From positions 1 to 29,153 of the IMG/VR virus record IMGVR_UViG_3300022602_000312: a DNA stretch of 29,153 nt. One strand, given 5' to 3'. Origin of the DNA: a virus. The first letter of the stretch is position 1. Every line of letters starts with the position of its first letter. This document shows positions 10,758 through 29,085 of this stretch, piece by piece. Below the pieces are notes generated by a model. It made no database searches, was not told where the DNA came from, and saw only the letters and a program-made list of their open reading frames with translations. Both the position numbers and the translations under genes were made by a program.

Positions 10758-10763
10758 TGGATT

Positions 10764-10991
10764 ATGGAAAGGTATGCAGATGAAATAGATCGAGCATCTG
10801 CGCTTGAGGAAGCTGAGCGCAGACACTTAATAAACAAAGCAAAAAATAGTACAACCATATTCATTAAATCAACAGGGTTTTGTCATAACTGCAATAGTGA
10901 GTTACGACATCCATTACTTTTTTGTGATGATGAATGTGCAGAAGATTATGAGTATTTGACGGCATGTCGCCGTCGTAATGGGGATAGATAA
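10764..10991 (+). CDS. Small Cys4 zinc-finger protein
   Basis: A 75-aa protein with an acidic, helical N-terminus (MERYADEIDRASALEEAERR) and a probable zinc site CHNC...CDDEC with about 13 residues between the pairs, followed by AEDYEYLTACRRRNGDR. The N-terminal half is reminiscent of TraR/DksA-like phage proteins, and the finger looks like the small Cys4 fingers often found beside phage late genes. RNA polymerase modulation is possible, but the spacing differs from classical DksA, so I leave the function open. Confidence 0.6.
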   Translation: MERYADEIDRASALEEAERRHLINKAKNSTTIFIKSTGFCHNCNSELRHPLLFCDDECAEDYEYLTACRRRNGDR

Positions 10992-11002
10992 AGAGGCATT
11001 AA

Positions 11003-11350
11003 ATGCGTACTGCGAAAGAGAGTGATTTTTTTATTGAGCTGACAGGAGTTGGCTTTTTTCGTTTTGGTCGCCGCACTTATGGTGATCGTTTAAAGATAAG
11101 GTCTGAGTATTTAAGGCTGGTTCGTGAATTTGGTGATGATGATCCTGATTTGTCAATGTATGCGGCTATGATTTCTTCTCATACGGTTTTGTGTGTTGAA
11201 GCGCCTAAAGGCTGGGAAAACTTAGCAGATATTGATCTTATTGCTGATGATGGAGCAGAAGATAAGATTTATGAGCTTTATCAATTATTGAAAACACAGG
11301 AAGAGTTTTTTCGTCAAGGCCATACCCAAGCAGGCCAAACGAAAGGGTAA
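11003..11350 (+). CDS. Tail assembly chaperone, zero-frame product (gpG-like)
   Basis: A 115-aa acidic, helical protein directly upstream of the tape measure gene, where almost all tailed phages encode the chaperone that coats the tape measure during assembly. It has an RGG-type start site (AGAGGCATTAAATG) and ends TAA at 11348-11350. A long open frame continues from inside its 3' end, which is the classical sign of a programmed frameshift producing a longer G-T fusion. No enzyme motif is present. Confidence 0.72.
   Translation: MRTAKESDFFIELTGVGFFRFGRRTYGDRLKIRSEYLRLVREFGDDDPDLSMYAAMISSHTVLCVEAPKGWENLADIDLIADDGAEDKIYELYQLLKTQEEFFRQGHTQAGQTKG
11342..11350 (+). promoter_or_regulatory. Candidate +1 programmed frameshift site
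   Basis: The zero frame ends AAA GGG TAA. A +1 slip of the peptidyl-tRNA from GGG to GGT while the stop codon TAA waits in the A site gives GGT AAA GAA and enters the downstream frame. The downstream frame is open from 11292, so a slip further upstream, for example at TTT TTT C (11306-11312), is also possible. The frame relation requires +1 or -2, not the lambda-type -1. Confidence 0.5.
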
Positions 11351-11594
11351 AGAACTACATGATACGTATTCATTTTGGTTTAGGCGTAAGTATAACTTGT
11401 CTCCTTTAGATCCTAGGTTTCTTGAATTGACTTCAGAAGATGTTGAGGCTGAGTTCTGGGCTTATTACTATGTAGATAAGCCGCCAGGTGAAGAATTTGA
11501 AGATGATGATTTTGATATTCAGGCCATTATGGATGATTTGAATGGTGGTGATATAAATGATGATGAATGGGAAGAATTGATCAATGACCGTTAA
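11346..11594 (+). CDS. Tail assembly chaperone, frameshifted C-terminal extension (gpT-like)
   Basis: This frame is the continuation reached by +1 slippage out of the 115-aa chaperone frame. It reads GKELHDTYSFWFRRKYNLSP, then LDPRFLELTSEDVEAEFWAYYY, then a very acidic end (EEFEDDDFDIQAIMDDL). The only internal start is a TTG at 11397 with no ribosome site, and the coding signal begins well before it, so translation by frameshift is far more likely than independent initiation. The fusion would be about 196 aa. It overlaps the start of the tape measure gene by 11 nt. In lambda the T part binds the major tail protein and helps wind the tail round the tape. Confidence 0.68.
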   Translation, partial: GKELHDTYSFWFRRKYNLSPLDPRFLELTSEDVEAEFWAYYYVDKPPGEEFEDDDFDIQAIMDDLNGGDINDDEWEELINDR

Positions 11595-14500
11595 AATTAA
11601 TGTCTCTGCTGATGTATCTGATGTTCAATCTGGACTAAAGAAAGTCCAAGATTCGGCTGATAAAATCAATAAGTCTTTATCAGGTGAGGTTGATTTTGAT
11701 TTTAAGCAGGGTAAGGATGATCTAGCTGAATTAGCTGCCAATGCTAAAAAACTGACTGATCTTTTAGAAAAAGCCAAAAAAAATGGCTCTGATTTATCTG
11801 GCGTTGATTTTGATGCGGTCTCTAAAGTATTTGAGGAAGCAGCCAAATCTGCCGAGGAACTTGATAGGGCACTTGAGTACCTAGGAAAATCTGATGGGTT
11901 GTCTAAGGTCGTAAAGAGCTCAAAAGATCTGACTGAAAACATCAAAAAAGCAACCAGAGAACAAAAGACCTTAAGGGAAGAAAATAGAAAATACATTACT
12001 GACCAAGAAAAGTACGATAGAGCAAGAAACTCAGGTGCTGCAGGATCTAGGCCTTTTAGAAATATTTTACATGAAGATATTTTGGGCGGTGGTTGGCGTA
12101 AAGTCGATGTTGATGAAGCAGCAGCAAAGCGTAAAACAAGGAATTTTTTTGATTTTGCTGGAATAAAAGTTCCCAAGGATTTATTTGGCAATGGTGATTC
12201 TGAAAAAGAAAGGGTAGATGCTGAAAAACAGGCTGAGAAAGAGCGCATATCTGCTGAGCAAAAAGCTGATAGAGAGCGTCAATCTGCTGCGCAAAGTAAT
12301 GCTCGAAGAATAGCTGCTGTAGCAGGAGCTGTAGGAAGCTATGCGGGCAGCATGGGGCAGGGTGGCGGGATAATGGGTTCAGCAGGGCGATTAGCTGGCT
12401 CTGGTATTGGTGCTGCTGCTGGAGCAGTGGCTGGTTCACTTATCCCTATTCCTGTTGTTGGCTCTATGATTGGTGCAGGCGTTGGTGCTTTTGCAGGAAA
12501 GTTACTAGGTGGCGCTGGTTCTGCTGTTGATAGCAAGGCTGATGATGTTACTGCAGAAGGTGCAATGTATACGGATTTGCGTCATTCATTAGGCGCAACA
12601 TCCATAGACTTTGAGATGTTGCGCGGTTCAGTTCGTCATTTTTCAGAAGGCTTAGGCTTGGCTTATAACGAGTCAGCCAAGTTGGCTAAAGAGTTTGCGC
12701 ATACCGCTAACCTTAATGGTGAAGACGGCATGAAGGTTGGCAAGGAGGTGGGCTCTGCTGTCGCTTTTGGTCGCGGCTATGGAATTTCACCTGATCAGTC
12801 TGTGCAGTTTATCGCAACTATGCGTCAAATGGGTGTTACTCAAGATGATAAGGGTAATCGTAAGCTTGCATTACAAATAGCTGAGTCTGTCAAAAGTGGT
12901 GGCACATCGGCAAAAATGGATGAGGTATTAGCTTCATTGCAATCTTATGTGCAGACATCGACAAGGCAATCCTTAACTTCTGCTGATGCAGGCGCTTACG
13001 CGTCTTTTATGGCTTTGCTGACTGGATCGTCAGTGCCAGGCATGAAGGGCGATCCTCGCAATGCAGCCGCCACTATGAATGCGGCAGATGAGGCTATGCG
13101 ACAGGGCGGCGCTCATGGTGAAGCTTCAAAAAATGTTAGTCTAGCAGCTTATCAGCAGCTATTTGGCAACAACTTTAATGCGTATGATGCTAAATTTGTC
13201 AATGAACAAGGTGCATTTAACGATCTTGGTAAATCGTTTGATAATGTTATTTCTGTGGCTGAGGATCGAGGTGATAAAGGTGAGGCTGATCGATATAGAG
13301 AAATGGCTAAGGCCGGTAGGGGCAAGACTGCTTTATCAGTCAATATGGATTTTCTTGAGAAAGAGTTTGGGCATCAGCCGCTTGGTGAGTTTATTGGTTC
13401 TGGTGCAAATCATTTTGGCATGGGTGTTAATCAATTTTCAGCGCTTAATACTGCCATTAATAAGGTTGGCGGCACAAATAATTTAGAAAAAACTTTATCT
13501 GATGCTGGTGTTGATATGAGCAACATGAGTATGGATAAGGTTTCTTCGCTTGCGGCGCTAGCAACGGGAAGCAAAGATGAATTAAAGGCGCAGGCTAAGA
13601 GATTGCAGGGGCTAACTGGTGAAAATAAATTATCAGATCCAGAGAGAAGCGCACTAAAGCAAGGGCTGGATGAAGATAACGAAGATAAGATACGTAAATC
13701 AGTGCTTAATTTATCATCTAAGCACAATGCATTAGGCGATAGCGGTGAGAAAGGAAGGCAATTACAAGCCACCGCAGACAATCTTTTACAAGAAATGGCA
13801 ACAAAACTTGTGCCTTATACGCAAGCAATTAAAGAAGGCATTACTGAGTTAGTGCGCAATGCTGCGCCTGATTCAGAGTTTGTTAAGCAAATGGATGCTG
13901 AGAAGGAAAAGCAAAAGAAGGATGCTGAAAAAGCAAGTTATTTGGATGCGCAAATTGAAGAAAGAAAAAAGATGGTTGATGATCCGAGTAGATCAAGGGA
14001 TCATGAAGGTGATATTAATCTTTATAATCATCTTGTTAAAAAGCGTAAAGAAATTGGTATTCCAACTGAATACAGTGAAATAGATGCGCCTACGCCTTGG
14101 GGAAATAAAAAAGACTATACTCAGTATGGGGATAGTAAGACAAAAGATTCATCTCCTCTTGCCAAAAATCAGTCTGATTTTATAGAAAAAACTAAGTCAG
14201 CTGCGGAGCGTGCGGCGACAAAAATTAACAAAGATACCGGCTCATCAATTTCAGCATCTGATATACAAGCTCAATGGGGTCTTGAGACTGGATGGGGTAA
14301 GTCAGTTCTTTCTGGAACTAATAATCTTGGCAATATTAAAGCCGGAAATGATTATAAAGGTCGCCATAAAATATTTAATGTAAATGAGGTTGATAAGGAT
14401 GGTAAGCCTTATAAAACTGATCAGTCTTTTAGGGCTTATGATTCATTAGATGATTCTGCTGATGATTATGCTGATTTAATATCAAGAAAATATCTAAATG

Positions 14501-15132
14501 GAAAGCCAGCTGCTAATGGGGCAGAATTTGCAAAAAGGTTAAAGCAGGGTGGTTATGCAACTGATCCAGACTATGAAAGCAAGCTTAGATCTGCAGCTAA
14601 TAAAATAAATAGTAATAGCAGTATAGCTATTGCTTCCGAAGACAATAAATCTGCCAAGCCAGAAACAAAAGAAGAGAAGCAGAAAATTGTTAAGGAAGCT
14701 GTTAAGGGCAATGATGCTATAAAAAAAATACCCCCCCAAGAAAAGTTGGCTGATGCGATAGCTATGCCAGAATCTGCCAAGGCCGGCCCTAATGATCCTT
14801 ATGATATTAATCAGACATTTCCATCTAATGAAGTAGACAAGGCTTTAGATCCAAATCGTACATTTGAAAGAAATCAGATTGATGATGCGCTTGATCCTAA
14901 TAGAAATTTTGAGCGTAATCAGATTGATGATGCACTTGGTAAATCAGCTGACTCAGATGGAAAGCTTCCGAAAGGCACTGTAATGGGCTCTTCAGGACAG
15001 CCTATTGCTCAAACGATTACCCATAAAATGGAAGGCAAGGTAACTCTTTATGATCCTTCTGGAAATCAAGTAGCAGATCCCGTATTAATGGCATCGGTTG
15101 GAATGCCTGTGGCCTCAGGTATGCCAAGATGA
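11584..15132 (+). CDS. Tape measure protein with peptidoglycan hydrolase (GH73-like) domain
   Basis: The 1182-aa protein sets tail length and is ejected through the tube. Residues 1-235 are charged and helical. About 238-318 form a Gly/Ala-rich hydrophobic segment (GSGIGAAAGAVAGSLIPIPV and onward), expected to help cross the inner membrane. A helical core runs to about 850. Residues about 860-1010 form a FlgJ/glucosaminidase-like domain (SDIQAQWGLETGWGKSVL with Glu901, NNLGNIKAG, then FRAYDSLDDSADDYADLI). The C-terminus carries three 15-residue repeats. The enzyme domain would cut the cell wall during DNA entry. Near 14741 there is an A8 run and a C7 run where sequencing slips are possible, although the frame is intact. 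Confidence 0.9.
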   Translation: MTVKINVSADVSDVQSGLKKVQDSADKINKSLSGEVDFDFKQGKDDLAELAANAKKLTDLLEKAKKNGSDLSGVDFDAVSKVFEEAAKSAEELDRALEYLGKSDGLSKVVKSSKDLTENIKKATREQKTLREENRKYITDQEKYDRARNSGAAGSRPFRNILHEDILGGGWRKVDVDEAAAKRKTRNFFDFAGIKVPKDLFGNGDSEKERVDAEKQAEKERISAEQKADRERQSAAQSNARRIAAVAGAVGSYAGSMGQGGGIMGSAGRLAGSGIGAAAGAVAGSLIPIPVVGSMIGAGVGAFAGKLLGGAGSAVDSKADDVTAEGAMYTDLRHSLGATSIDFEMLRGSVRHFSEGLGLAYNESAKLAKEFAHTANLNGEDGMKVGKEVGSAVAFGRGYGISPDQSVQFIATMRQMGVTQDDKGNRKLALQIAESVKSGGTSAKMDEVLASLQSYVQTSTRQSLTSADAGAYASFMALLTGSSVPGMKGDPRNAAATMNAADEAMRQGGAHGEASKNVSLAAYQQLFGNNFNAYDAKFVNEQGAFNDLGKSFDNVISVAEDRGDKGEADRYREMAKAGRGKTALSVNMDFLEKEFGHQPLGEFIGSGANHFGMGVNQFSALNTAINKVGGTNNLEKTLSDAGVDMSNMSMDKVSSLAALATGSKDELKAQAKRLQGLTGENKLSDPERSALKQGLDEDNEDKIRKSVLNLSSKHNALGDSGEKGRQLQATADNLLQEMATKLVPYTQAIKEGITELVRNAAPDSEFVKQMDAEKEKQKKDAEKASYLDAQIEERKKMVDDPSRSRDHEGDINLYNHLVKKRKEIGIPTEYSEIDAPTPWGNKKDYTQYGDSKTKDSSPLAKNQSDFIEKTKSAAERAATKINKDTGSSISASDIQAQWGLETGWGKSVLSGTNNLGNIKAGNDYKGRHKIFNVNEVDKDGKPYKTDQSFRAYDSLDDSADDYADLISRKYLNGKPAANGAEFAKRLKQGGYATDPDYESKLRSAANKINSNSSIAIASEDNKSAKPETKEEKQKIVKEAVKGNDAIKKIPPQEKLADAIAMPESAKAGPNDPYDINQTFPSNEVDKALDPNRTFERNQIDDALDPNRNFERNQIDDALGKSADSDGKLPKGTVMGSSGQPIAQTITHKMEGKVTLYDPSGNQVADPVLMASVGMPVASGMPR
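14818..14940 (+). repeat. Three tandem 15-residue repeats in the tape measure C-terminus
   Basis: The period is 45 bp from 14818: FPSNEVDKALDPNRT, then FERNQIDDALDPNRN (14863-14907), then FERNQIDDALGKSAD (from 14908). Copies two and three are nearly identical at DNA level over their first 10 codons. Copy one is diverged, suggesting one older and one recent duplication. The function is unknown. Confidence 0.8.
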
Positions 15133-16619
15133 GAGTCTATGAGCCAAAGGTAGAAGTGAGGCTAGTAAAAGCCATAAATAGAAAAGAAATTATTCCGACT
15201 GTTCCTGTTGTTGCAAAGCGCTACGGCGATTCTTTAAAAGCTATCGATTTAACACCTTATCTAGGTGAGAATGGGGGCGTACATATATCTAAAGGCATTC
15301 GTGAGCCTGCAGGTGCTTGGTCTGTTACTATTTGTGATAAGCCTCATACAGTTAGCGATAAGAGTCAAAAGTCCTTATTTGAAACGATTTATGCCTTAGT
15401 AGAGCCTATGGATTTAATCGAGATTCGTATGGCGCATGATCCTTATACTTACCGTGATGATGTGAAGCATACCACGGGTCTGCCTGTAGTTATGCGCGGC
15501 TTTGTGTCAATGGTAACGCGCAATGAAATTATGTCAGGTGGTAAGCCTACCAGGACAGTGACTATTTCTGGTCAGGATTTTGGTAAGATTCTTCAAATAA
15601 TTCAGATTTTTTATTTAAACAACTCAATGGTTGGTGACAACATTTTAAGTGAGTTTGCTTTTTTTCAAAAATATGGGGTTGATGCAAAGATTAAGCCGGC
15701 TATTGATTTTGTTGCTGATGTCCTTAATGGTATTCTTAACCCTTATTTGGCAAAATTAACAGCACTTGCTAATGGGAAAAGCATTGGTGCGGATGTTGTC
15801 AATGTCATTACGCCTAATGTCACTATAGAGGGCTCTATATCTCCTAAAGTAGTTTCTAGTAAAGTTAATGTGTCTTTATATCAGCTATTGGTCTCTGTGC
15901 TAGATATAGGCGCATTCAATGAGTTATTTATTGAAGATACCGATGGTGGCATAGCCTTAACCGTTCGTCCTGCGCCCTTTTTAGATGTAGATGGCAATCC
16001 TATTCAAGGTCATGCGCCCGACTCTATTCAAATTGATTCTACGGATATAGTTGCCATCAATGTATCAAGGTCTGATGCGGGTGTAGCCAATTACTATTGG
16101 GCTCAATGTGCGCCTTGGGCATTAACCAGCAATGAAGATCAAAAGGCGGCAGCCTCGGTGGGCGATAAGTCTACGTTCATTTTGTATGATTACCTAAACT
16201 GTATGCAAGCTTATTATGGTGTTAGGAAAATGGAGGTTGAAATATCACTAGGTCCGCCTTCTTATTCATGGTCTGATGCAATAAGAGCAACGCAAGCAGA
16301 TTCGCAAACTTCATCATTGTCAGCTTGGATAGTTAGTAGGCGGAAAATCTTATCATCGATTAATAAAGATAATGTGATATTTGAAAGTGGCTCATTACGC
16401 CTTAGAGGCAATGAGCGCATTAAGGCAGGGATGCAATTAAATATAAGTCGTGGAAATAAAATGTATTCCAGCTATTACGTTACCAAAGTAGATCATGAGT
16501 TTGTGCCTTTTCAGGGTTTTTATACTACTGTTACGGTTGAAAGAGGTACGAGTTTTATAACGCGCTCCCAAAGTGATCAGCTTACTTATTTTTTAGAAAT
16601 TGATGGCAAGGGGGTGTGA
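15129..16619 (+). CDS. Baseplate hub protein (T4 gp27 / gpD-like)
   Basis: The 496-aa protein overlaps the tape measure stop by ATGA. It lies between tape measure and spike, the standard place for the hub on which the spike trimer sits. The N-terminal half contains GVHISKGIREPAGAWSVTIC, MDLIEIRMAHDP and MRGFVSMVTRNEIMSGGKPT then RTVTISGQDFGKIL. This is the usual hub-domain pattern in which an excitation strand pair is followed by a 'vxGxDxgkil' motif. The C-terminus has GNERIKAGMQLNISRGNKMY and SSYYVTKVDHEFVPFQGFYT, typical of the final hub barrel. Length matches the family. Confidence 0.8.
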   Translation: MRVYEPKVEVRLVKAINRKEIIPTVPVVAKRYGDSLKAIDLTPYLGENGGVHISKGIREPAGAWSVTICDKPHTVSDKSQKSLFETIYALVEPMDLIEIRMAHDPYTYRDDVKHTTGLPVVMRGFVSMVTRNEIMSGGKPTRTVTISGQDFGKILQIIQIFYLNNSMVGDNILSEFAFFQKYGVDAKIKPAIDFVADVLNGILNPYLAKLTALANGKSIGADVVNVITPNVTIEGSISPKVVSSKVNVSLYQLLVSVLDIGAFNELFIEDTDGGIALTVRPAPFLDVDGNPIQGHAPDSIQIDSTDIVAINVSRSDAGVANYYWAQCAPWALTSNEDQKAAASVGDKSTFILYDYLNCMQAYYGVRKMEVEISLGPPSYSWSDAIRATQADSQTSSLSAWIVSRRKILSSINKDNVIFESGSLRLRGNERIKAGMQLNISRGNKMYSSYYVTKVDHEFVPFQGFYTTVTVERGTSFITRSQSDQLTYFLEIDGKGV

Positions 16620-17440
16620 TGTTTTCTTTAGCAAGAGTGGTTAATATTCATCCAGAGTCTAATTCAGTTGATGTTGAGTTTATGGATGATGGCAGGCGTG
16701 TTTCTGGTGTTCAATGTATGGCTAATACTGCAGGTACAGATTTTGGCAATGCTGATTTATCAATGCCCGACTCAGTTGGTTATGGAACTCCAATAAGCAA
16801 AACCAGAAATATTATTGCCGTAGTTGGCTTTGTAAATAGCTTTCCTATTGTTATGGGTTTCTTGTTTCCCGAAGTGACTCAGTGTCTATTTAGTGACATT
16901 AATCGCAAGATATATCGTCATGCCTCTGATGTTTATTATTCAATTGATGGGGCTGGAAATACTGAGTTTGTGCATCCATCGGGGGCGTTTGTGCGCTTTG
17001 GTGTCACACCTGCGCATGAGGATTTAACCGGTAAAGATTATGATAATCTTTGGAAAATAAGCCGAAACACCGATAAAGCAGTTCATATACATATAGAGCA
17101 AGCGGCAGGAAAGGCTTCTATAGATATTGATCCAGCTGGTAATATCTCAATCGCTAATGCAGGCAATTCAACGATTGCTACGACTGGTGATATATCAATG
17201 TCAGCAGGTGGCAATATATCCTTGGCCGCTAAAGGAAGCTTGTCTATATCAGCAAAAGGCGGCATTTCATCAACAGCTTCAGGAAGCATGGCCATAAAAG
17301 CAGCCGCCATTGAAACAACAAGTTCTATGCACATCACTGGAGGCATTACTTCTGATGCCGATGTTGTGGCGGGTGGCATTAGTTTAATGAAACATACGCA
17401 TGGTGATGCTCAAGGTGGCAGGACAAGCCTGCCATCATAA
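16619..17440 (+). CDS. Baseplate spike protein (gpV / gp5-like) with HxH tip
   Basis: I choose ATG 16619 (273 aa) because AAGGGGG lies 4 nt upstream; the GTG three bases earlier is too close to that site. The N-terminal ~95 residues form an OB-fold-like domain (ARVVNIHPESNSVDVEFMDD and IIAVVGFVNSFPIVMGFLFP). From about 160 the protein is a triple-beta-helix stalk of short GNISI, GDISMSAGG, NISLAAKGS and LSISAKGGIS repeats. The tip has KHTHGD with His259 and His261, the pattern that binds an iron ion at the apex of phage spikes, ending GGRTSLPS. No lysozyme domain is present, so this is the short gpV-type spike. Confidence 0.9.
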   Translation: MFSLARVVNIHPESNSVDVEFMDDGRRVSGVQCMANTAGTDFGNADLSMPDSVGYGTPISKTRNIIAVVGFVNSFPIVMGFLFPEVTQCLFSDINRKIYRHASDVYYSIDGAGNTEFVHPSGAFVRFGVTPAHEDLTGKDYDNLWKISRNTDKAVHIHIEQAAGKASIDIDPAGNISIANAGNSTIATTGDISMSAGGNISLAAKGSLSISAKGGISSTASGSMAIKAAAIETTSSMHITGGITSDADVVAGGISLMKHTHGDAQGGRTSLPS

Positions 17441-17473
17441 TTGATTAATCAAAATACAAAATTTAAGTTCCAT

Positions 17474-17507
17474 GTCATAGGTCGTGACAGCATAGTCACT
17501 CTATGAC
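17474..17507 (+). promoter_or_regulatory. Nested inverted repeats around motif site 4 and the start codon
   Basis: GTCATAG (17474-17480) and CTATGAC (17501-17507) are perfect 7-bp arms enclosing the GTCGTGACA motif. Inside, CATAG (17491-17495) can also pair with the same CTATG (17501-17505) around loop TCACT. The shared right arm includes the ATG at 17503, so two alternative stems compete for the start codon. In DNA the outer arms make the motif part of a 34-bp dyad. Confidence 0.5.
17481..17489 (+). promoter_or_regulatory. GTCGTGACA motif, site 4
   Basis: GTCGTGACA then GCATAGTCACTCT ends exactly 13 nt before ATG 17503, the same spacing as at site 1. It occupies the only gap in the 8221-26188 stretch longer than 13 nt. 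No Shine-Dalgarno is visible. The gap also has the 12-bp palindrome TTGATTAATCAA (17441-17452) right after the spike stop. Confidence 0.6.
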
Positions 17508-18657
17508 AACGCCACAGCAAAAATCTTCTGATCGCCCTATAAGCTTTATTCTTCATAATATGGCTAAGGGTACTGAGCCTGTTGAAATGAGGCTAGTTAT
17601 TCGCCCTGAGGACTTGACGCGAACAGATCAGTCACGTCTTACAACAACTCAAACATTAGGAGGCGCTTGGGGTGATAATTTTGGTCGTGGTATCCCTACT
17701 GTGCAATTATCAGGCACAACAGGCTGGGGCTCTGGAGGACTTCCAGACGGCTTAGTAATATTTCAAGCCCTGTATGAACAAATTTTTATGCAATGGCATG
17801 CTCAGCGTGAAGAGGCGCTTAAAATTGCACTTGATCCGGATAAAGTTAAATTAATCTTTGCTGATTATTTGGATAATTTTATTTATGTAGTTGCTCCGCA
17901 AAACTTTGTATTACGTCGCAATAAATCTAGGCCGTTATTATCTCAGTATCAAATTAATTTGACTTGGTTGTCTGATGATGTGGCAGAAACAATGAAAGCT
18001 GTGGCTGCTTCTTCATCATCTGGGGCAATGAGTGATATTGAGAAAAGTGCTTTAGATTCTATCCTTAGCTCTATTGATGATATTAGTTCGTTTATTTCAT
18101 CTAATATTTCCTCGGTTCTTGGCGCAATAAAAGGAGTATTTGACGGCTTGGTTGCTATTGCTGCTAAAGCTCTTAATGCTGTTCAAAGAGTTTTAAAAGC
18201 AGGGATGGGTATTGTTAATGCAGTAACATCTGGCTTATTAGGTATTGCCAGCAGTCTTATGAGGGCTGCGGCTAATGTCACCTCTATGATTCGTTCTGTT
18301 ATGAGCTTTCCTCAAGTAGTTATGGCTCAATTTCAGCGCCTAACTGCAGCATTTGAAAACGCTTTTTGTGTTTTAACCAATGTTTTTACGCCTAGAAAAT
18401 TCTTACCTAATTATAGTGGGCTATATGGATCATCTAACTGTTCTTCAACGGCAGGTGGATCTCCAATATCAATTTACAATACTGAAAATCCATTTCCTAC
18501 CTTGTTCCCGGTTAAAGCATCTGCTTATAGCATGTCTACGCCAGCCAGCGCTTCATTGGGGCGACTTACAACTATTGATCCCGTTCTAAATCCAATGCCT
18601 ATCACTCGACTGAGTGGTGACATGAAGGCTGTTGGCGGCATAACGATAAACGCATGA
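17503..18657 (+). CDS. Baseplate-associated structural protein
   Basis: The 384-aa protein opens the baseplate unit. Residues about 12-160 are strand-rich: ISFILHNMAKGTEPVEMRLV, GIPTVQLSGTTGWGSGG, KVKLIFADYLDNFIYVVAPQ, FVLRRNKSRPLLSQYQINLT. This pattern resembles the tube-like baseplate proteins that join hub and tube or carry a LysM module. About 185-290 is a long amphipathic Ser/Ala-rich helix region (SSIDDISSFISSNISSVLGA and onward). The C-terminus is Pro/Ser-rich and probably extended. It overlaps the next gene by ATGA. The exact equivalent in T4 or P2 is not clear to me. Confidence 0.6.
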   Translation: MTTPQQKSSDRPISFILHNMAKGTEPVEMRLVIRPEDLTRTDQSRLTTTQTLGGAWGDNFGRGIPTVQLSGTTGWGSGGLPDGLVIFQALYEQIFMQWHAQREEALKIALDPDKVKLIFADYLDNFIYVVAPQNFVLRRNKSRPLLSQYQINLTWLSDDVAETMKAVAASSSSGAMSDIEKSALDSILSSIDDISSFISSNISSVLGAIKGVFDGLVAIAAKALNAVQRVLKAGMGIVNAVTSGLLGIASSLMRAAANVTSMIRSVMSFPQVVMAQFQRLTAAFENAFCVLTNVFTPRKFLPNYSGLYGSSNCSSTAGGSPISIYNTENPFPTLFPVKASAYSMSTPASASLGRLTTIDPVLNPMPITRLSGDMKAVGGITINA

Positions 18658-19253
18658 CCTTAGTAGCTGCGCCTAATGTTCGCTATGTCACTATAAATTA
18701 TGGTGACGATCTTAGACAAATATCTTTGCGTGAGCTAGGGGACGCCTCTAATTGGGTGTCTTTGGTCGTTATTAATGACCTTAAGCCGCCTTATATTTCT
18801 GACAAAGCAAGCAATGGAGTTCTTGCTTATGGTGATGCAATTAAGATTCCTGCGCCTTCATCTTATATTGATGCGAGCGCAGATCCTATTGCTGTTTTTA
18901 GCATCGATATTTTTGCTTCAAAAAAGAAACTATCAGCCGTTAATGGTGATTTAGCGGTGGTCAGTGGTCTGGCTAATTTATACCAGGCATTAGCTTTGCA
19001 TGTTGATGTAGATAAAAAAGAACTGGGTTTTCATCCAGAGTTTGGTTGTTATGTGCGCTCCGTTATGGGTGCAATGAATGGCCCTATGGCGGGTCAATTA
19101 GCTGCATTTTATGTGAAGTCTGCGCTTATTGAAGATTCTCGCGTTGATTATGTTTCTGCGTGCACTGCAACAGTGATAGGCGATGTCATTAATGTGAGTG
19201 CAACGGTTGTGCCCATATCTGGGAAGCCTATTGATTTATTACTGGTGATATAA
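18654..19253 (+). CDS. Baseplate wedge protein with LysM-like and gp25-like parts
   Basis: The 199-aa protein starts at an ATGA overlap with its neighbour. Residues about 10-70 look like a LysM or gp53-type module (INYGDDLRQISLRELGDASN, VINDLKPPYI, YGDAIKIPAP). Residues about 95-199 match the gp25/gpW-like wedge pattern (GLANLYQALALHVDVDKKEL, GFHPEFGCYVRSVMG, then DSRVDYVSACTATVIGDVIN and PISGKPIDLLLVI). gp25-like proteins link the sheath start to the baseplate. A combined LysM and gp25 layout is seen in several myoviruses. The gpJ-like gene follows with no gap. Confidence 0.75.
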   Translation: MTLVAAPNVRYVTINYGDDLRQISLRELGDASNWVSLVVINDLKPPYISDKASNGVLAYGDAIKIPAPSSYIDASADPIAVFSIDIFASKKKLSAVNGDLAVVSGLANLYQALALHVDVDKKELGFHPEFGCYVRSVMGAMNGPMAGQLAAFYVKSALIEDSRVDYVSACTATVIGDVINVSATVVPISGKPIDLLLVI

Positions 19254-20360
19254 ATGTTTCAGCTTAAGGACATGATTTCTATTAGCGCAGGTATGATAAA
19301 CCGCGCTAAAGCAACACAGGCAAAGATAACTGATTTTAATATAGGTTCTGTTGCAAGGACGATGCTTGAATCGTCGGCGATTGAAGTTGAACAGTTTTAT
19401 CAGCGTATGTTTTACGGAATCCTTGAAGCTATTCCGACAGCCATTTATTTAGGCTTTAATTTTACAATGATTCAGCCTACTGAGGCTCAGGGTCTAGTTA
19501 CCATTAATTTTGCTGGACCTATAGTAAGTGCCTTTACTATTCCGGCTGGAACTATTTTTGTAAATTCATCTAATGCTGTTACTTATTTATCAGTTCAAGA
19601 TACCTCTGTTGGGCTGGGCGTCACTACCATTAACGTACTAGTTCAATGCTCTCAAGCAGGCTCGGCAGGCAATGCGCCTTATGGGGCTATTGATTCAACT
19701 CAAAACTATAGCCTGCCAGTTGGTGCAGTAATTATTGGGAATGCTATTAGTTCGGGTGGAGATGGCGAAACAGACCTAGAGAGACAAGCTCGATTTGCGC
19801 AATATATTCAAACTTTAGCAAGAGGCACAAATAGTGCGGTTGAGTATGGTGCGCGTATGGCGCAAATATTTTCAGCAGATGGCAGTCTTATTGACTATGT
19901 AAGTAGGGTGGGGTTTTCAGAAGTACCAGGCACTATGAGTGTTTATATCTATGGCTCAAACGGCCTTGCCTCACCTGCATTGGTAGCTGATGCTCAAAAA
20001 ATTATTGATGGTTATTGGGATGCTGCAAGCCAAACTTTTATAGCAGGATGGAGACCGGTAGGTATACAGGTAATTGTTTTCCCCATGATACAGCAGCCAG
20101 TTGATGCTATTTTTACGATAGTGATGTTTTCTGGCGTGGCCTTAGATACCGCTGTTAAAAATAACATTATGACTGCAATTTCAGCTCAAATTACCTCTGT
20201 TTTGCCTAGTTTTGTTTTATATGTTGAAAATATTGATGATGCTATTTTAACAGTTGCTGGTGTTCAATCTGTTAGAAACAATATGACTTCTAATATTACT
20301 TGTCCATTCAATACTGCATTAGTGATGGGTAATATTGAAATAATTGAGGGGACTAGCTAA
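19254..20360 (+). CDS. Baseplate wedge protein, gpJ/gp6-like
   Basis: The 368-aa protein has the baseplate J signature. Its start region is FNIGSVARTMLESSAIEVEQ followed by FYQRMFYGILEAIPTAIYLG, then a jelly of strands with FTIPAGTIFVNSSN, then GSAGNAPYGAI. Next comes ISSGGDGETDLERQARFAQY with IQTLARGTNSAVEYGARMA, the most recognisable motif of the family. It forms the wedge ring that carries the fibres. A GGTGAT ribosome site precedes the ATG, which directly abuts the previous stop. The stop overlaps the next ATG (TAATG). Confidence 0.88.
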   Translation: MFQLKDMISISAGMINRAKATQAKITDFNIGSVARTMLESSAIEVEQFYQRMFYGILEAIPTAIYLGFNFTMIQPTEAQGLVTINFAGPIVSAFTIPAGTIFVNSSNAVTYLSVQDTSVGLGVTTINVLVQCSQAGSAGNAPYGAIDSTQNYSLPVGAVIIGNAISSGGDGETDLERQARFAQYIQTLARGTNSAVEYGARMAQIFSADGSLIDYVSRVGFSEVPGTMSVYIYGSNGLASPALVADAQKIIDGYWDAASQTFIAGWRPVGIQVIVFPMIQQPVDAIFTIVMFSGVALDTAVKNNIMTAISAQITSVLPSFVLYVENIDDAILTVAGVQSVRNNMTSNITCPFNTALVMGNIEIIEGTS

Positions 20361-22462
20361 TGGTAGCAACTCGCGAAAGGCTGATAGACAATCTATATAG
20401 CGGCCTTGATCCTTCTCCTGATGAAGAAATAGTTTTACGGATAGGGCAGGGAGGCAAGCTATCGTGGACGGTTTCTAATGATGTTTTAACTGTAATGGGC
20501 GCTAATGGCGCCTTATCTGCATTTAAGCTTAGCAATACGACTATTGGTGAGTTAGCTAATTCACTGTCCGATTCATCAATTGATGTTAAGTATATCAATA
20601 ATGATTTTTTAACGATTAGTGCGGCTGCCATTATTGATGGTAGTGGCACTGAGTCAGAAACTAATGGTGATGCGCTTTCTGCTTTTACATCTATTTTATG
20701 GGCGTTTATGGACGCCTATGCTGTTGAGCTTGATGCGGCAAATAGTAATATAGATGAGGCTATTGCTGATCTTTATATCAATAGCGCTACAGGGGAAATT
20801 CTTGATATTTGGGGTAAATATTTTGGTGATCCACGTAATCTTGGTGAGTCAGATTCAGATTATAGCAAGCGGATTATTATTGATACCTTGCGCCCAAAAT
20901 CAAATAAATATGCATTAATCAATGCCGCTGATGCGCTATCGGGCTCTAAAATTGATATTTATGAGCCTTGGACTGATTTGTTTTTCTTGTCTCAATCTAA
21001 TCTTGATGATCAACATACTTATGATGGCGATATGTGGTCGCCTTACGTATTTAGACCTCAGCTCAGAGCGCAGCAAAATATCAAATGGGCTGCTATCACG
21101 GCCTTATTTGAAAAGCTTCGTCCTGCAGCTGTTTTTCAATTGCCTCCAGAGTTTATTCCTGATACCAGAGGCAATGAGGTTAGTGTTAAAGGCTTAGGTA
21201 TCTCGCAAACTGATGATGTTTTTGTGGGCGCTAGATACGCCGACAAAATGAATCTTGATGATTATCATCTGGGTGATCCAGTCATCAATAATTATCGTAT
21301 GTCAGTTTATGACATCTATGGCATGGGCTTATATAAGTTAATGCCGATTGGTTGGAATAGCGCCCAAGATCAGCAAGATTATTACTGGAATGGCTCTTGG
21401 GATAGCCGTGCATGGGACATATTAGCTTTAGAAAATGGCTGGAACGGTTTATGGGATGGTCATGAATGGTTTGGAGCTCTTCCGGCTAATGGTTGGGACA
21501 ATAGGTCATGGAATGATTTATATCCCAGCATAGGGACGCCTATTCCAGAGCTGCCTTTAGAATTACATGCAAGGCGCTTATTTGTTCATGCTGATATTGT
21601 TTTATCTGATATGGATGAGGGCTTTGGTCATGAACGCTTTATGTTTACAGGCGGTTGCCAAGTAACGAGAAATGTTCCTGTATTAGATGATTTTCTTTTG
21701 TCTGATTTTGATATGGGAACGACTTATGAAGAATTTGAAGACGTTTATTTAGAAAGTCATATTTTAGGCAATGATGGCACTCAGATGCCTTATTCATTAG
21801 GAATAAATGTAAGCAATGAAATAGCTTTGTCAGCTACGGTCATAGGCTCTTTAGATTGGAATGGCGCATGGTCTTCGGCATCATGGGACGCTGTAATAGC
21901 TGATATTGGCATAACTCATGAAATAGGTTTGTCGGTCACGGCTAATGCTATGGCTATTCATGAGCCTTTATATTGGAACAACTTATGGTCGTCTGATACC
22001 TGGAGCACTACAACATTATCACATGATTTATTTTGGAATGGTTCTTGGTCTACAAGTTCTTGGAATTCAAATGCTTTTAGTTACGGTTTTAATATAGGTT
22101 CTTACGATACTTATAGTCTGCAAGGGGCATTTAACAGCGGCTCAGGGATTAACAGTATTAGTAGTTTTGCTTCTGGCGTTTCCGTTTCAATGTCTCCTGA
22201 ATACATTAATGCTATGTCAATAGATTGTGACTATATTGAGGATGATTATGTGCCGCCTGATTATACGGTCGGTTACTTTCAGTCAATGAGTTTAGTGCCT
22301 TCTGTTGTTGCTGAAACGGTCGTGACAACAGAATACATAGAAGTTAATCCAACTAATGGGGCTGTTAGCTTAATGTGGGCTGACAATTGGTCGGTTTATT
22401 CTTGGGATTATAGCTCAACCTATTCTGGCATCTGTATTACTGTTCAAACGGAGAACAACTAA
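20360..22462 (+). CDS. Baseplate/tail protein with gpI-like N-terminus and Trp-motif repeats
   Basis: The 700-aa protein starts in a TAATG overlap with AGGGG upstream. Residues about 110-300 match the position and character of gpI-like (DUF2612-like) proteins that follow gpJ: MDAYAVELDAANSNIDEAIA, DIWGKYFGDPRNLGESDSDY and DTLRPKSNKYALINAADAL. From 343 the protein carries a scattered tryptophan motif, W-x3-W-x4-W, beginning at Trp343, 361, 500, 539, 559 and 673, with a W-x4-W variant at 379. The core is WNG(S/L/A)W. Between them lie beta-rich stretches. The repeat half is probably exposed and may bind a fibre, glycan or neighbouring protein; I do not recognise it as a named family. Confidence 0.7.
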   Translation: MVATRERLIDNLYSGLDPSPDEEIVLRIGQGGKLSWTVSNDVLTVMGANGALSAFKLSNTTIGELANSLSDSSIDVKYINNDFLTISAAAIIDGSGTESETNGDALSAFTSILWAFMDAYAVELDAANSNIDEAIADLYINSATGEILDIWGKYFGDPRNLGESDSDYSKRIIIDTLRPKSNKYALINAADALSGSKIDIYEPWTDLFFLSQSNLDDQHTYDGDMWSPYVFRPQLRAQQNIKWAAITALFEKLRPAAVFQLPPEFIPDTRGNEVSVKGLGISQTDDVFVGARYADKMNLDDYHLGDPVINNYRMSVYDIYGMGLYKLMPIGWNSAQDQQDYYWNGSWDSRAWDILALENGWNGLWDGHEWFGALPANGWDNRSWNDLYPSIGTPIPELPLELHARRLFVHADIVLSDMDEGFGHERFMFTGGCQVTRNVPVLDDFLLSDFDMGTTYEEFEDVYLESHILGNDGTQMPYSLGINVSNEIALSATVIGSLDWNGAWSSASWDAVIADIGITHEIGLSVTANAMAIHEPLYWNNLWSSDTWSTTTLSHDLFWNGSWSTSSWNSNAFSYGFNIGSYDTYSLQGAFNSGSGINSISSFASGVSVSMSPEYINAMSIDCDYIEDDYVPPDYTVGYFQSMSLVPSVVAETVVTTEYIEVNPTNGAVSLMWADNWSVYSWDYSSTYSGICITVQTENN
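22319..22327 (+). promoter_or_regulatory. GTCGTGACA motif, site 6 (intragenic)
   Basis: GTCGTGACA followed by ACA, the same continuation as site 1, lies within the Trp-repeat gene and encodes TVVTT. It is 135 nt before the ATG at 22463. It may be an internal promoter for the distal tail genes, or chance; it is the only copy not in an intergenic gap. Confidence 0.35.
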
Positions 22463-22978
22463 ATGGCAATTTTAACCGCATCCGGTCGCACCGCTATAGC
22501 GGCATCAATAGCGGCTCAACCTATACATTTTGCATGGGGGTCTGGAAGTCCTAGTTGGGATGTTACTCATGTTGCTGAAGATGTTAATGCAACAGGCTTG
22601 GTGACTGAAATAGGTCGTCGTCTTGCAACCAGTGTGCAATATGTTAATCCTGATAATTCGGGCAGCATTGTTGTTCCCGTATTCAATGACGCTTCAGGCA
22701 ATAGTATCTCTAAAAGCTTTTCGCTTTCAACCGTGCCTACGCCAAACTTATACATGCGTTTTAATTTTGACTTTACTGATGCGCCTATAGCTACCATTCG
22801 TGAAGTAGCTATTTTTGTTGGCACTATAGTAGCTACAGGTCTTCCGGTAGGTCAGCTTTATTTTACGCCCGATCAACTGGTAAGCTATGGGACTTTATTA
22901 GCGCTTGAAAATTTAATAGAGAACATTCAAAGATCACCTAACTCAAGACAGTCTTTTGAGTTTGTTCTAACCATATAA
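22463..22978 (+). CDS. Conserved phage tail protein, function unknown
   Basis: The 171-aa protein starts directly at the previous stop with GGAG in the end of the upstream gene. It is strand-rich: MAILTASGRTAIAASIAAQP and HFAWGSGSPSWDV at the N-terminus, LYMRFNFDFTDAPIATIREV and AIFVGTIVATGLPVGQLYF in the middle, RQSFEFVLTI at the end. Proteins of this size and position occur between gpI-like and fibre genes in myoviruses and are presumed baseplate-fibre adaptors. No enzymatic motif. The assignment as structural comes from position. Confidence 0.6.
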   Translation: MAILTASGRTAIAASIAAQPIHFAWGSGSPSWDVTHVAEDVNATGLVTEIGRRLATSVQYVNPDNSGSIVVPVFNDASGNSISKSFSLSTVPTPNLYMRFNFDFTDAPIATIREVAIFVGTIVATGLPVGQLYFTPDQLVSYGTLLALENLIENIQRSPNSRQSFEFVLTI

Positions 22979-22990
22979 TCTGGGGCAATT

Positions 22991-24961
22991 ATGACTAATA
23001 CAACAATGCCTTATGGTTATTATGATCGATTTGATATATCAAAAGGCTATGAGAAAAATTTATTTGTAGCCGGTGCTGGCCTGCAATCAGCAGAGCTTAA
23101 TGAGATTCAAGATTACGCAACTCATCAGATTCAAAGTATTGGCAATGCAATGTTTCATGATGGCAATGTTATAAAAGATGCGGCCATTATTGTTAATCCT
23201 ACTACGGGTGTAGTGACTGCTGAAGCTGGCATGATCTATATTATGGGCGCTGTAAGAGGCGTTGCGGCGGCTTCATTTACTATTCCTACTGTTGGAAATA
23301 TAGCCATTGGTCTTTATTTGCAAGAGACAGTTGTTACTGCGCTTGATGATCTGGCTTTACGTGATCCAGCTTCTGGTACTCGAAACTATCAGCAGCCTGG
23401 CGCTTCTCGTTTAAAGCGTCAAGTAGTGTGGGGATTTGTTGGCGACAATCAGTCGGGTGAATTTTATCCTGTTTACACCGTTGTCGATGGCGTGCAAATT
23501 TCTAAAATTTCTCCGCCCAATGTCGATCCTATTACACAATCTATCGCTAAGTATGATCGTGACTTATCGGGTGGTGACTACATTGTGACTGGCTTTAGCG
23601 TCACTATTCAGCCAGATGATAATAATAAACAAAATTATTCTATAGCAGCAGGTCGTGCTCGTGTAAATGGTTATGCCGTTGAGCTTAGCACTTCATCGCG
23701 CATGGTGTTTGATGCGCAGGCTGATGAGATGTATGTTGATTCAGAGCCTTATGCCTCTACAACACTGGCTGCACAGCGTATTACTTTGGCACAAGCACCG
23801 ATTGCCAATATCACTAAAGTGGGTATTACCTCTCAAAAAACAGCAACCATGACTCATGGTGCTTATAACGGTGCACTTGATCCTCTGCCAGATAATTCAG
23901 TTTTAACACTGGTTTCTGTTGTCCAAGGGACTACGACCTATGTAGCTGGTACTGATTACAAATTAACTGCCGGTAAAGTAGATTGGTCTTTAACAGGTGC
24001 AGAGCCTGCTACTGGATCAACCTATTCTGTCACCTATCAATATATGACTTCAGTAGTGCCTACTCTAGTAGATGCTACAGGCTTAACAGTGACAGGAGCT
24101 GTTACAGGCTCTTTAATTCTTGTTAGTTATAACTTTTATTTGCCTCGTTTTGATCGTATTGCTTTGGCGTCTGATGGCTCTTTTGTCTGGGTTAAGGGCG
24201 TTGCTGCTGAATGGAATCCGCAGCCGCCCGCCATATCAAATTCATTGCTTCCTATTTGCACCATTGCTCAAACTTGGGATGCTAACCGTTCTATCGTCAA
24301 CGATGGTGTGCGTGTAGTGCCTATGAATGACATTGTGGCTATGAATGAACGCATTAGTTATGTGCTTGGGCTTGTTGCTCAGCAAGAATTAACAATGGGT
24401 ATTCATACTCGTGAGGCAGGTGCTAAAAAAGGTTTATTTGTTGATCCATTTTTGGATGACTCACAGCGAGATGCTGGCACACCGCAAACAGCTGCTGTTA
24501 TTAACGGCACTTTGAATTTGCCGATATTAGCTGTTGCTAATAATACAGTTGGAGACATTACCTCCGCAAAATCTTTACCCGCTATTCAGACTGTCGATTT
24601 ATCCCAAGCTCTAAAAACATCATTTATGCCGGTTAATCCGTATATGTCATTTGCTGTGACGCCTGCGGTGATTACATTAACGCCTGCTATTGATGTTTGG
24701 ACTGAGGTAACGACAAGCTGGGCAGCTCCAGTGACTAATTATGTCTATGACAATCATGGTTGGTGGTGGTGGTGGTGGGGCTGGTATGGCTGGGGCTGGC
24801 AGACAGTGTCAACAGCAACCAATACGTTGTCTAGCACTAGCACGCCCGCACAAACTTTGCGTCAAATTGATATTGATTTTTCAATCTCTGGCTTTGAGGC
24901 TAATGAAAACTTAATAGTGACGACTTTTGATGGCATCACTATCACGCCTGTAGCGCAGTAG
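22991..24961 (+). CDS. DUF4815 tail/fibre protein, N-terminal part of a split gene
   Basis: The 656-aa protein has the DUF4815 start pattern: YGYYDRFDISKGYEKNLFVA, GAGLQSAELNEIQDYATHQI, SIGNAMFHDGNVIKDAAIIV, and further YDRDLSGGDYIVTGF and AGRARVNGYAVEL. In related phages DUF4815 proteins are longer and include a downstream DPLAQTF region. Here that region is in the next ORF, in the same frame, separated by TAG-GAG-ATT-ATA-TAA-ATG. The C-terminus holds a very unusual run of six tryptophans (591-596) in HGWWWWWWGWYGWGWQ. Predicted role: virion side-protein or fibre linking baseplate to adhesin. A GGGG ribosome site precedes the ATG. Confidence 0.8.
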   Translation: MTNTTMPYGYYDRFDISKGYEKNLFVAGAGLQSAELNEIQDYATHQIQSIGNAMFHDGNVIKDAAIIVNPTTGVVTAEAGMIYIMGAVRGVAAASFTIPTVGNIAIGLYLQETVVTALDDLALRDPASGTRNYQQPGASRLKRQVVWGFVGDNQSGEFYPVYTVVDGVQISKISPPNVDPITQSIAKYDRDLSGGDYIVTGFSVTIQPDDNNKQNYSIAAGRARVNGYAVELSTSSRMVFDAQADEMYVDSEPYASTTLAAQRITLAQAPIANITKVGITSQKTATMTHGAYNGALDPLPDNSVLTLVSVVQGTTTYVAGTDYKLTAGKVDWSLTGAEPATGSTYSVTYQYMTSVVPTLVDATGLTVTGAVTGSLILVSYNFYLPRFDRIALASDGSFVWVKGVAAEWNPQPPAISNSLLPICTIAQTWDANRSIVNDGVRVVPMNDIVAMNERISYVLGLVAQQELTMGIHTREAGAKKGLFVDPFLDDSQRDAGTPQTAAVINGTLNLPILAVANNTVGDITSAKSLPAIQTVDLSQALKTSFMPVNPYMSFAVTPAVITLTPAIDVWTEVTTSWAAPVTNYVYDNHGWWWWWWGWYGWGWQTVSTATNTLSSTSTPAQTLRQIDIDFSISGFEANENLIVTTFDGITITPVAQ

Positions 24962-24973
24962 GAGATTATATAA

Positions 24974-26188
24974 ATGACACTTAAAGCAAATTCATTAGGC
25001 GCTGTCAGCGGAAAATTTACCATTCCAGCAGGCGTGCCATCGGGGAATAAGTTAGTTGCCTTTACAGGTGATAAAGGTTCTCATGGCCAGGCCATTTTTA
25101 CAGGGGAGGGTACCTTAGTCTCTCAAACTTTGCAGCTTGTGACTACATTAAGCGAAAACTACTGGTGGTGGTATTACGACCCTCTAGCTCAGACCTTTAT
25201 GGTTAATGCGGATGGTCAATACTCTGCTGTTGAGTTATTGGTAGGTGCTGTCGGGAGTTCTGATGTAACTGTGCAAATTCGTACTTGCCAATTAGGATTT
25301 CCAACGCAAACTATTTTAGCGACCTCGCGTTTACCTGCTTCTAGTTTGCTGACGAACGGTGCTTTCACTCAATTCAATTTTGATGCGCCTGTATATCTTA
25401 CGCAGAATACCGAATATGCCATTGTTGTGCTTTGTGATGATGCAACTACAGCTATTGGTGTTGCTGAAATGGGTAAATATGATGTGACTCATGGTCAGTG
25501 GGTTACTTCTCAACCTTATACGGTTGGGGTGTTGCTATCATCATCTAATGCCTGTACATGGACTGCAAGTCAAGATGTAGATCTTACCTTTGAATTGATT
25601 AAATCTAGCTATACGACAACGTCGGCTGATATTGCTTTAGGTTCAGTTGCACTAGATCATGCGACTGATTTAATGGTTGTTGGTATGGCAACACAACCGA
25701 CCTCCGCTACAAAAGTCAGCTATAAGTTAACTATGCCAGATGGCACAGCTTCGGTTGTTTCATCAGGTCAGCCCATACAATTGGCTAATCAAACTAGTGG
25801 CTCAATGAAAGTTGATGCCATGATTTTGGGTGATGCTAATGCTTCGCCTGTTGTTTACCCTGGTGTACAAGTTATTGCTGGCATGGTCATGAGCACAGCC
25901 GATTATGTTACACGTGCTATTCCAGCTGCTAATAACTCAACCGCCAAGATTGTATTTGATGCCGCGATTCCATCGGGATCATCAGTCAATGTTTATATCA
26001 TGGCTCAAGGCGCAACAGCATGGACGCCGGTTAGTTTAGCAGCTTCTGCTATCAATCCTGATGGCTCTATGGAGTTTTCATATACGTCTGGAGTTTTCTC
26101 CGGACAAAGTGTGCAAGTGAAGCTGACGTTAAACGGCTCAAGCTCAGCAAGACCTGTGGTCAAAAATCTACAGGTGGTTGTTCTTTAG
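24974..26188 (+). CDS. Tail/fibre protein, C-terminal part of the split DUF4815-type gene
   Basis: The 404-aa protein begins with a beta module (GKFTIPAGVPSGNKLVAFTG) that in related proteins lies just before DPLAQTF. It then has ENYWWWYYDPLAQTFMVNAD (from about residue 60) and a carbohydrate-binding-like domain (VELLVGAVGSSDVTVQIRTC, TEYAIVVLCDDATTAIGVAE). The frame equals that of the DUF4815 gene and the ribosome site GGAG is formed by the TAG stop region. It therefore looks like gene fission, with the parts now made separately, or joined in small amounts by readthrough. The last base of its stop codon is the first base of motif site 5. Confidence 0.75.
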   Translation: MTLKANSLGAVSGKFTIPAGVPSGNKLVAFTGDKGSHGQAIFTGEGTLVSQTLQLVTTLSENYWWWYYDPLAQTFMVNADGQYSAVELLVGAVGSSDVTVQIRTCQLGFPTQTILATSRLPASSLLTNGAFTQFNFDAPVYLTQNTEYAIVVLCDDATTAIGVAEMGKYDVTHGQWVTSQPYTVGVLLSSSNACTWTASQDVDLTFELIKSSYTTTSADIALGSVALDHATDLMVVGMATQPTSATKVSYKLTMPDGTASVVSSGQPIQLANQTSGSMKVDAMILGDANASPVVYPGVQVIAGMVMSTADYVTRAIPAANNSTAKIVFDAAIPSGSSVNVYIMAQGATAWTPVSLAASAINPDGSMEFSYTSGVFSGQSVQVKLTLNGSSSARPVVKNLQVVVL

Positions 26189-26196
26189 TCGTGACG
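26188..26196 (+). promoter_or_regulatory. GTCGTGACG motif, site 5 (one change from consensus)
   Basis: GTCGTGACG then AAACAATAAAA, beginning on the last base of the upstream TAG stop. It lies 62 nt before the fibre ATG at 26259 with a perfect hairpin between. Eight of nine bases match the other copies. The AATAAA box 4 nt downstream parallels CATAAT at site 2. Confidence 0.52.
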
Positions 26197-26211
26197 AAAC
26201 AATAAAACGCG

Positions 26212-26227
26212 GGTATCACAAGATACC
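26212..26227 (+). promoter_or_regulatory. Leader hairpin upstream of the tail fibre gene
   Basis: GGTATC and GATACC form a perfect 6-bp stem with a 4-nt loop ACAA. It has no T-tract, so it is not a normal terminator. It sits between motif site 5 and the ribosome site (GGATG), as the site 3 hairpin does for the tail tube gene. Confidence 0.5.
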
Positions 26228-26258
26228 TATCATTTAGTAACTTTTTGGATGCAAAAAC

Positions 26259-27389
26259 ATGGTTAATAACACAACGCCCAACTTAGGTTTACAGTTACCT
26301 GATCCCTCTAATCCGCTAAGCACTGATGTATTAAGATTAATAAGCTCTCTTAATACGCTAGATACAGCTGTTAATGCAAAAACAACAATGGCTCAAGTTA
26401 ATACAGTCTTGAGCGAATCACCTACATTAAGTAACCCAACCTACACAGGCACACTCACAGGCTCTACAGGCATACTGAATATTGGCTCAGGTCAAGTCTA
26501 TAAAGATGCTAGCGGCAACGTGGGGATTGGGACTACAGCCCCGAACGCAAAACTGGGAATCTACTCATCGACAAGTACAGCCAATTTAACTCAGTGGGTT
26601 GGTGGGACATCAGATCCAAATTTTATCACCATTGCAAAAAGTGGAGTTATAGGCGTAGGACCTCAGTTTTCATTGGGTATGGATTATTCAAGCACTTATA
26701 TTGATCTTTGTGCCATCAAATTTGCAAGGACCAGTGGTGCTGGTGGAAACATGCAGTTCTTTACTGGTATAAATACTAATGGCGCAGAACGGATGCGCAT
26801 CGACTCCTCTGGCAATTTGCTTGTGGGGACTACGACACCACAGATATCATCTCAAAATACTATTGTAGGTGCTTCTTTAGCAGATCTTTTTTCTTTAGCC
26901 GTTGTGCATAACGCAACTACTAATGCAGTTCGAGGAATTTTATCAATATCACCAAACTTTGCAGGTAATGATGGATATTTATGGATTGCTTCCCGCAGTG
27001 GAGGCGACGTTGGCTACCAATTTACAAACGGAAATATTGTAAATATTAATTCTAGCTATGGCACTTTGTCAGACATCAAGCTAAAAGAAAACATTGTTGA
27101 CGCTACGCCTAAGTTAAACGCCATTTTGCAACTGCGAGTGCGCAACTTTAACTTAAAAAAGCAACCGGGTGAAAAACAAATTGGTTTTGTTGCGCAGGAA
27201 ATAGAACAAGTCTTTCCGGGTTTGGTGGAAGAAATAACTGACTTGAGTGCGGATGGTGTGCCGAACGGTGACAAGACTAAATCTGTAAAAACTTCGGTGC
27301 TTATTCCGATGCTAGTCAAATCAATCCAAGAACTCAAAGCCATCATCGACACGCAACAAATACAAATTAACTCTTTACTAGGAAAATAA
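26259..27389 (+). CDS. Tail fibre/spike with S74 intramolecular chaperone
   Basis: The 376-aa protein starts with a short adaptor (PNLGLQLPDPSNPLSTDVLR, then SLNTLDTAVNAKTTMAQVN), then beta-rich repeats typical of fibres (DASGNVGIGTTAPNAKLGIY; later MRIDSSGNLLVGTTTP). The C-terminal ~105 residues form a Peptidase_S74 domain: SDIKLKENI at 271-279 with the Ser271/Lys276 dyad (S-D-x3-K), then IGFVAQEIEQVFPGLVEEI, SVLIPMLVKSIQELKAIIDT. This chaperone trims itself off at Ser271 after fibre trimerisation. It is the likely receptor-binding protein, with mature length about 270 aa. It opens the fibre unit after motif site 5. Confidence 0.9.
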   Translation: MVNNTTPNLGLQLPDPSNPLSTDVLRLISSLNTLDTAVNAKTTMAQVNTVLSESPTLSNPTYTGTLTGSTGILNIGSGQVYKDASGNVGIGTTAPNAKLGIYSSTSTANLTQWVGGTSDPNFITIAKSGVIGVGPQFSLGMDYSSTYIDLCAIKFARTSGAGGNMQFFTGINTNGAERMRIDSSGNLLVGTTTPQISSQNTIVGASLADLFSLAVVHNATTNAVRGILSISPNFAGNDGYLWIASRSGGDVGYQFTNGNIVNINSSYGTLSDIKLKENIVDATPKLNAILQLRVRNFNLKKQPGEKQIGFVAQEIEQVFPGLVEEITDLSADGVPNGDKTKSVKTSVLIPMLVKSIQELKAIIDTQQIQINSLLGK

Positions 27390-28944: not shown

Positions 28945-29085
28945 TCACAAAAACTGTGGATAAATACCATCAGTCCGCACCCAGTACGCATGGACTCCTG
29001 TATAGCCTTTATTTATAGGGTACTCTGTCCAATCTAGCATGGGGGCAACGCTAAAGCGGTAACTTGGGGTGTTCGGGGTTAGCAT
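28945..29085 (-). pseudogene. dusA: 5' fragment of dusA (tRNA-dihydrouridine synthase A) fused to phage DNA
   Basis: Leftward ATG at 29085 encodes MLTPNTPSYRFSVAPMLDWT, the hallmark DusA N-terminus (RFSVAPMxDWTDRHCR, flavin-binding strand one of the TIM barrel). After DWT the reading changes to EYPINKGYTGVHAYWVRTDG and stops after 46 residues, with none of the DRHCRYF continuation. A whole DusA is about 330 aa. The break point is exactly where dusA-targeting phages recombine, so this is an attachment junction. Either the host gene's displaced 5' end (prophage state) or the phage-supplied 5' end in an attP of a non-integrated genome would look like this. Confidence 0.8.
29023..29045. other. 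Putative attachment-site core within dusA
   Basis: The minus-strand bases encoding APMLDWTE, including GCCCCCATGCTAGATTGGAC, are the most conserved stretch of the dusA 5' end. They lie at the boundary between DusA-like and non-DusA coding. The exact crossover cannot be fixed without the other attachment end. The 68 bases right of the ATG (29086-29153) hold no gene I can support and would be the dusA promoter region. Confidence 0.65.

Follow-up and report, generated by a model that had tools for sequence, protein, structure and literature searches.

Junction between host dusA and phage sequence

The window analyzed here, a stretch of 29,153 bp that represents an entire IMG/VR record (IMGVR_UViG_3300022602_000312), comprises a phage tail module followed by a short segment in which phage DNA adjoins the start of a dusA gene (Table 1). 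Since the record stops 113 bp past the shared attachment core described below, the other end of the element is not visible in it. Read on the minus strand from 29085 to 29026, the window encodes DusA codons 1–20, after which the frame continues through unrelated sequence to a stop at 28945. The translation consists of MLTPNTPSYRFSVAPMLDWT, corresponding to residues 1–20 of the 325-aa DusA of the Methylococcaceae MAG A-1_bin-241 (L002), followed by the non-DusA stretch EYPINKGYTGVHAYWVRTDGIYPQFL; the resulting 46-codon fusion probably has no function of its own. A search for the Dus Pfam domain in the window and its sister contigs returned no match, because just 20 dusA codons are left.

Table 1. 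Features of the window, with coordinates, strand and supporting evidence
Feature	Position	Strand	Evidence
Tail module (sheath, baseplate, lysin-bearing tail proteins, fibres) toward the attachment end	1438..27389	+	PHROG matches
Truncated fusion ORF, 46 codons + stop	28945..29085	-	Translation
Phage P' arm adjoining the core	28945..29026	-	L001 and attP contig L136 share this sequence beyond the core
Putative arm-type site GCGGACTGAT, at an offset of 48 bp from the core	28969..28978	-	Motif and offset shared with related elements
Further putative arm-type site GCGTACTGGG, spaced 11 bp from the preceding one, roughly a helical turn	28980..28989	-	Motif pairing
Displaced host dusA 5' end, 20 codons MLTPNTPSYRFSVAPMLDWT	29026..29085	-	Matches L002 DusA residues 1–20
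Attachment core ATGCTAGATTGGAC, 14 bp, crossover zone	29027..29040	-	Three-way alignment of attB, attP and window
Host flank: upstream of dusA and first dusA codons	29041..29153	-	100% identity to L002; continued in L001 as comF-bioB-bioF

In A-1_bin-241 an intact dusA follows comF, and this MAG offers the uninterrupted site for comparison. Window positions 29027–29153 are identical to it at 127 of 127 bp, with an abrupt divergence at 29027/29026 and only random similarity beyond. Compared with this site, the window breaks at codon 20, in APMLDWT, and the third base of that codon (29026) is already phage-derived. Because the perfect identity gives way so abruptly, we conclude that the window carries displaced host dusA sequence and that L002 represents attB. 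Outside the window, an exact 23-mer from the junction matched a single viral contig, L001. Its identity to window 28576–29153 is 97%, and it extends past the window end into comF, bioB and bioF (gene names from our reading of the translations). When the ComF of L001 was searched against methanotroph genomes, the best match was again A-1_bin-241, and the host DNA of this contig is 98.9% identical to that MAG over a 2534-bp match. The 127-bp perfect identity, together with a second contig bearing the same junction, excludes a chance match. Judged by the sequence of the junction, the prophage host is a freshwater methanotroph with the comF-dusA locus of A-1_bin-241. Phage-database searches with the end region recovered a 45-bp match at a terminator and chance matches, and nothing else.

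The original prediction had read the DusA N-terminus through APMLDWT, followed by non-DusA sequence, as an insertion inside dusA, and had placed the right end of the element near 29023–29045. The translation and the nucleotide identity ending at 29027 confirm this reading, and the empty site in L002 bears out the insertion. The placement was also correct: in the window, host sequence borders the core on one side and phage sequence on the other, placing the crossover within its 14 bp, which are identical in attB and attP.

Two other observations concern the same region and locus. Near the phage end, a nearly perfect direct repeat of 26 bp (GCAATTCGCTGGTGGTAGCTAYTATG) has its copies at window 28561–28586 and 28851–28876, at a spacing of 290 bp. 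In a Crenothrix polyspora MAG (L003, 2040–2907), other sequence has taken the place of the dusA start and the 800 bp upstream of it, bringing a longer N-terminus and a CCDC90-like gene; neither a second core nor an integrase was found near this replaced start, and a dusA element since lost may have left the locus as a scar.

Free-phage attachment site, integrase and putative arm-type sites

A 38-mer from the phage arm retrieved contig L136, whose phage side is 99.4% identical to L001 and 100% identical to L120. Beyond the core, L136 has no host sequence but a dusA start of phage origin, MINPDKPAYRFSVAPMLDWT, which brings an ATG and 20 DusA codons; a 119-bp gap separates this start from a divergent gene that encodes a tyrosine integrase of 336 aa, and a PrtN/RdfN-like gene lies on the same side, an arrangement corresponding to attP. 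Joining this phage start in silico to the dusA body of L002 yields an open 325-codon DusA with an altered N-terminus. L136 is 94% identical to window 28576–29094, an interval covering the phage-specific dusA start, and it has a diversity-generating retroelement (DGR) version of the tail-fibre region, for which reason we regard it as a sister strain and not the phage of the window. Another contig, 3300000439_000158 (L120/L137), breaks off precisely at 29040, the last base of the shared core, as expected if the assembler met integrated and free forms in one sample. Among viral contigs, a P-arm pattern matched only L136, and a DusA query recovered 13 other contigs that carry dusA. A pattern for the host dusA body was absent from the viral contigs, and hence no fused left end of the window's phage was found.

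The L136 integrase matches the Pfam Phage_integrase profile (4e-17), retains R208-K237-H291-R294-H317-Y326, and groups with dusA-adjacent integrases of Methylococcales, with 44–72% identity to 14 of these (closest 72%). By its match to PF11112 (E 9e-14), the neighboring protein is a putative PrtN/RdfN-type directionality factor. A search of 301 Methylococcales genomes with the integrase of Enterobacteria phage mEp460 recovered 14 strong homologues, every one beside dusA, and at these 14 loci the dusA starts vary ahead of a conserved core. Two of the elements, both in large contigs, are complete with both ends seen: dusA is restored at the integrase end, and the displaced start lies 40.8 kb away in G190 and 77 kb away in G040. 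Our reading of the G190 proteins places a phage tail module in that element. For the elements in G162 and G167, the pattern used found no displaced dusA start within 100 kb. In the four larger related phages that encode an integrase (G002, G004, G006 and G007), the enzyme is unrelated and the dusA core is absent.

These results bear on what had been predicted for the far side of the element. The expected dusA-type tyrosine integrase is present across the core in the sister attP contig and is not visible in the window. As to whether the 5' end of the restored dusA is phage- or host-supplied, the ATG and 20 codons at attP decide for the phage; the far end of the window's own phage was not recovered. 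The anticipated second copy of the core is likewise seen in Methylococcales genomes with the same integrase type, the window's far end lying outside the record.

Both arms carry a short motif, GCGKACTGAT, that may mark integrase binding. In the window it lies 48 bp past the core, an offset shared by the copy in the G190 element (GCGTACTGAT); on the P side of the core it is at -91 in L136 (GCGTACTGAT), L127 (GCGTACTGAA, with A as the last motif base) and L130 (GCGGACTGAT). Like the window, the L136 P arm also has an 11-bp pair (GCGTACTCAAT-GCGTACTGAT). The chance expectation for the motif is 0.06–0.20 per arm, and more distant members of the dusA-integrase family are without it. We infer that its copies are putative arm-type integrase sites; as fixed-offset sites, they would provide a direct handle for footprinting the integrase.

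A dusA-specific prophage and competing explanations

Within the phage body, PHROG matches identify a tail sheath, baseplate wedge, endolysin and tail fibre. Contigs L082, L120 and L121 represent the same phage, being about 98.7–100% identical over long stretches. Sister phages carry a DGR at the tail tip (L001 1–1887, L120 11434–15240, L136 2985–4635), with a bAvd-like protein, a reverse transcriptase, and template and variable repeats that differ almost solely at template adenines (15/16 in L001, 14/14 in L120). At the corresponding place, window 26407–28345 has a Peptidase_S74 chaperone fibre, an apparent module swap. A 593-bp segment with a weak DUF2335-like ORF (3200–3792) is missing from the otherwise ~99% identical L082, and window 1–310 is unmatched in L082, reflecting either a strain difference or a break, with the next 2.9 kb 98.7% identical.

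The right end of the window is almost certainly the attachment junction, distal to the integrase, of a prophage of the dusA-associated integrase (DAI) type lying in host dusA. The window would then cover a portion of the late half of a tailed prophage that bears a sheath and whose DAI-type tyrosine integrase recombines the 14-bp core common to host dusA (codons 16–20) and phage attP. Integration would split dusA: the native upstream region and codons 1–20 would stay at the window end, reduced to a dead fusion of 46 codons, and at the opposite end the phage ATG and codons would be joined in frame to the remainder of dusA, giving a full-length gene beside the integrase and presumably expressed from phage-side sequence. 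Excision is probably under the direction of the PrtN/RdfN-like factor, whose gene neighbors that of the integrase. The missing end of the window's phage would match that of the sister phage, and the attP contig together with the contig break at the core is consistent with excision as a circle that restores attB.

A right end that is itself the attP of a free or circular phage, with the dusA start being the phage's own, would give a similar reading, since the attP of this class also runs from a DusA start into non-DusA sequence and such an attP exists in L136. However, the window matches host L002 at 100% over the 68 bp upstream of its dusA start and over that start itself, which differs from the one carried by the phage in L136, and L001 continues into host comF-bioB; the 127-bp host identity refutes this explanation, to which we assign hardly any probability. 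Equally far-fetched is a mis-assembly of host dusA and phage DNA through their shared core. Short shared sequence of this kind is prone to assembler mis-joins, but an independent assembly of a different metagenome yielded the identical join, there accompanied by 2.5 kb of host DNA (L001), and integrases of this family are known to integrate at this core.

A real junction in a defective or remnant prophage unable to excise is also improbable, if less extravagant as a proposal. In its favor, an intact integrase end is not demonstrable from the window alone, and possible scars exist, as in L003 with its replaced dusA start and no integrase nearby. Against it, the existence of an attP form in a near-identical phage implies a lineage capable of excising or circulating, the L136 integrase is intact, the window genes are long and open, and 3300000439_000158 breaks at the core as would coexisting integrated and free forms.

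Relation to known dusA elements and implications for the host

DAI prophages and genomic islands were described by Farrugia et al. 2015 (PMC4482086), and the attachment of the present prophage at dusA is well supported as a new example within that class, from a freshwater methanotroph. Both target the 5' end of dusA, with a tyrosine integrase beside the restored gene, a dusA 5' end supplied by the element and the host's own 5' end displaced to the side away from the integrase, and both have a PrtN homologue. The semi-conserved att repeats of the class would correspond to the core seen here at the right end, in attB and in attP. The present element differs in its 14-bp attB/attP identity, compared with a 21-bp semi-conserved consensus in the class, and in its methanotroph host, contractile-type sheath and, in some sister strains, DGR. 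The integrase of mEp460 (NC_019716) is listed as a DAI homologue by Farrugia et al. (PMC4482086); this phage shares a DAI-homologue integrase and PrtN-type excisionase, but it is an E. coli phage with another tail type, and no dusA-like core was found beside its integrase. The dusA-specific IMEVchUSA3 of Vibrio cholerae, in which the PrtN homologue RdfN was shown experimentally to drive excision (PMC8409611), likewise combines Int with a PrtN-like RdfN and replaces the dusA promoter and N-terminus. IMEVchUSA3, however, is a mobilizable island under IncC plasmid control, whereas the present element is a phage, and its int and rdfN lie on opposite sides of attP, whereas here the PrtN-like gene is on the integrase side. 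By analogy, the integrase and RdfN-like factor would act as in Vibrio. Our literature search for dusA prophages in methanotrophs returned nothing relevant.

The original prediction also raised a possible effect of the element on dusA expression. In the Vibrio element, dusA is restored with a new promoter and lower expression (PMC8409611). In the 119-bp gap of L136, a promoter scan detected no plus-strand sigma-70-like promoter better than in shuffled sequences. It is a speculative and rather unlikely proposition that lysogeny changes tRNA dihydrouridylation in freshwater methanotrophs, with dusA expression coupled to integrase occupancy via this region; if true, dusA would be placed under a 119-bp region shared with the divergent integrase promoter and integrase arm sites. 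More broadly, dusA integrases recur in Methylococcales, in 14 of the 301 genomes sampled and always at dusA. For the phage studied here, the junction fixes one end and, as a physical DNA join and not a prediction, links an uncultivated phage with one particular freshwater methanotroph.
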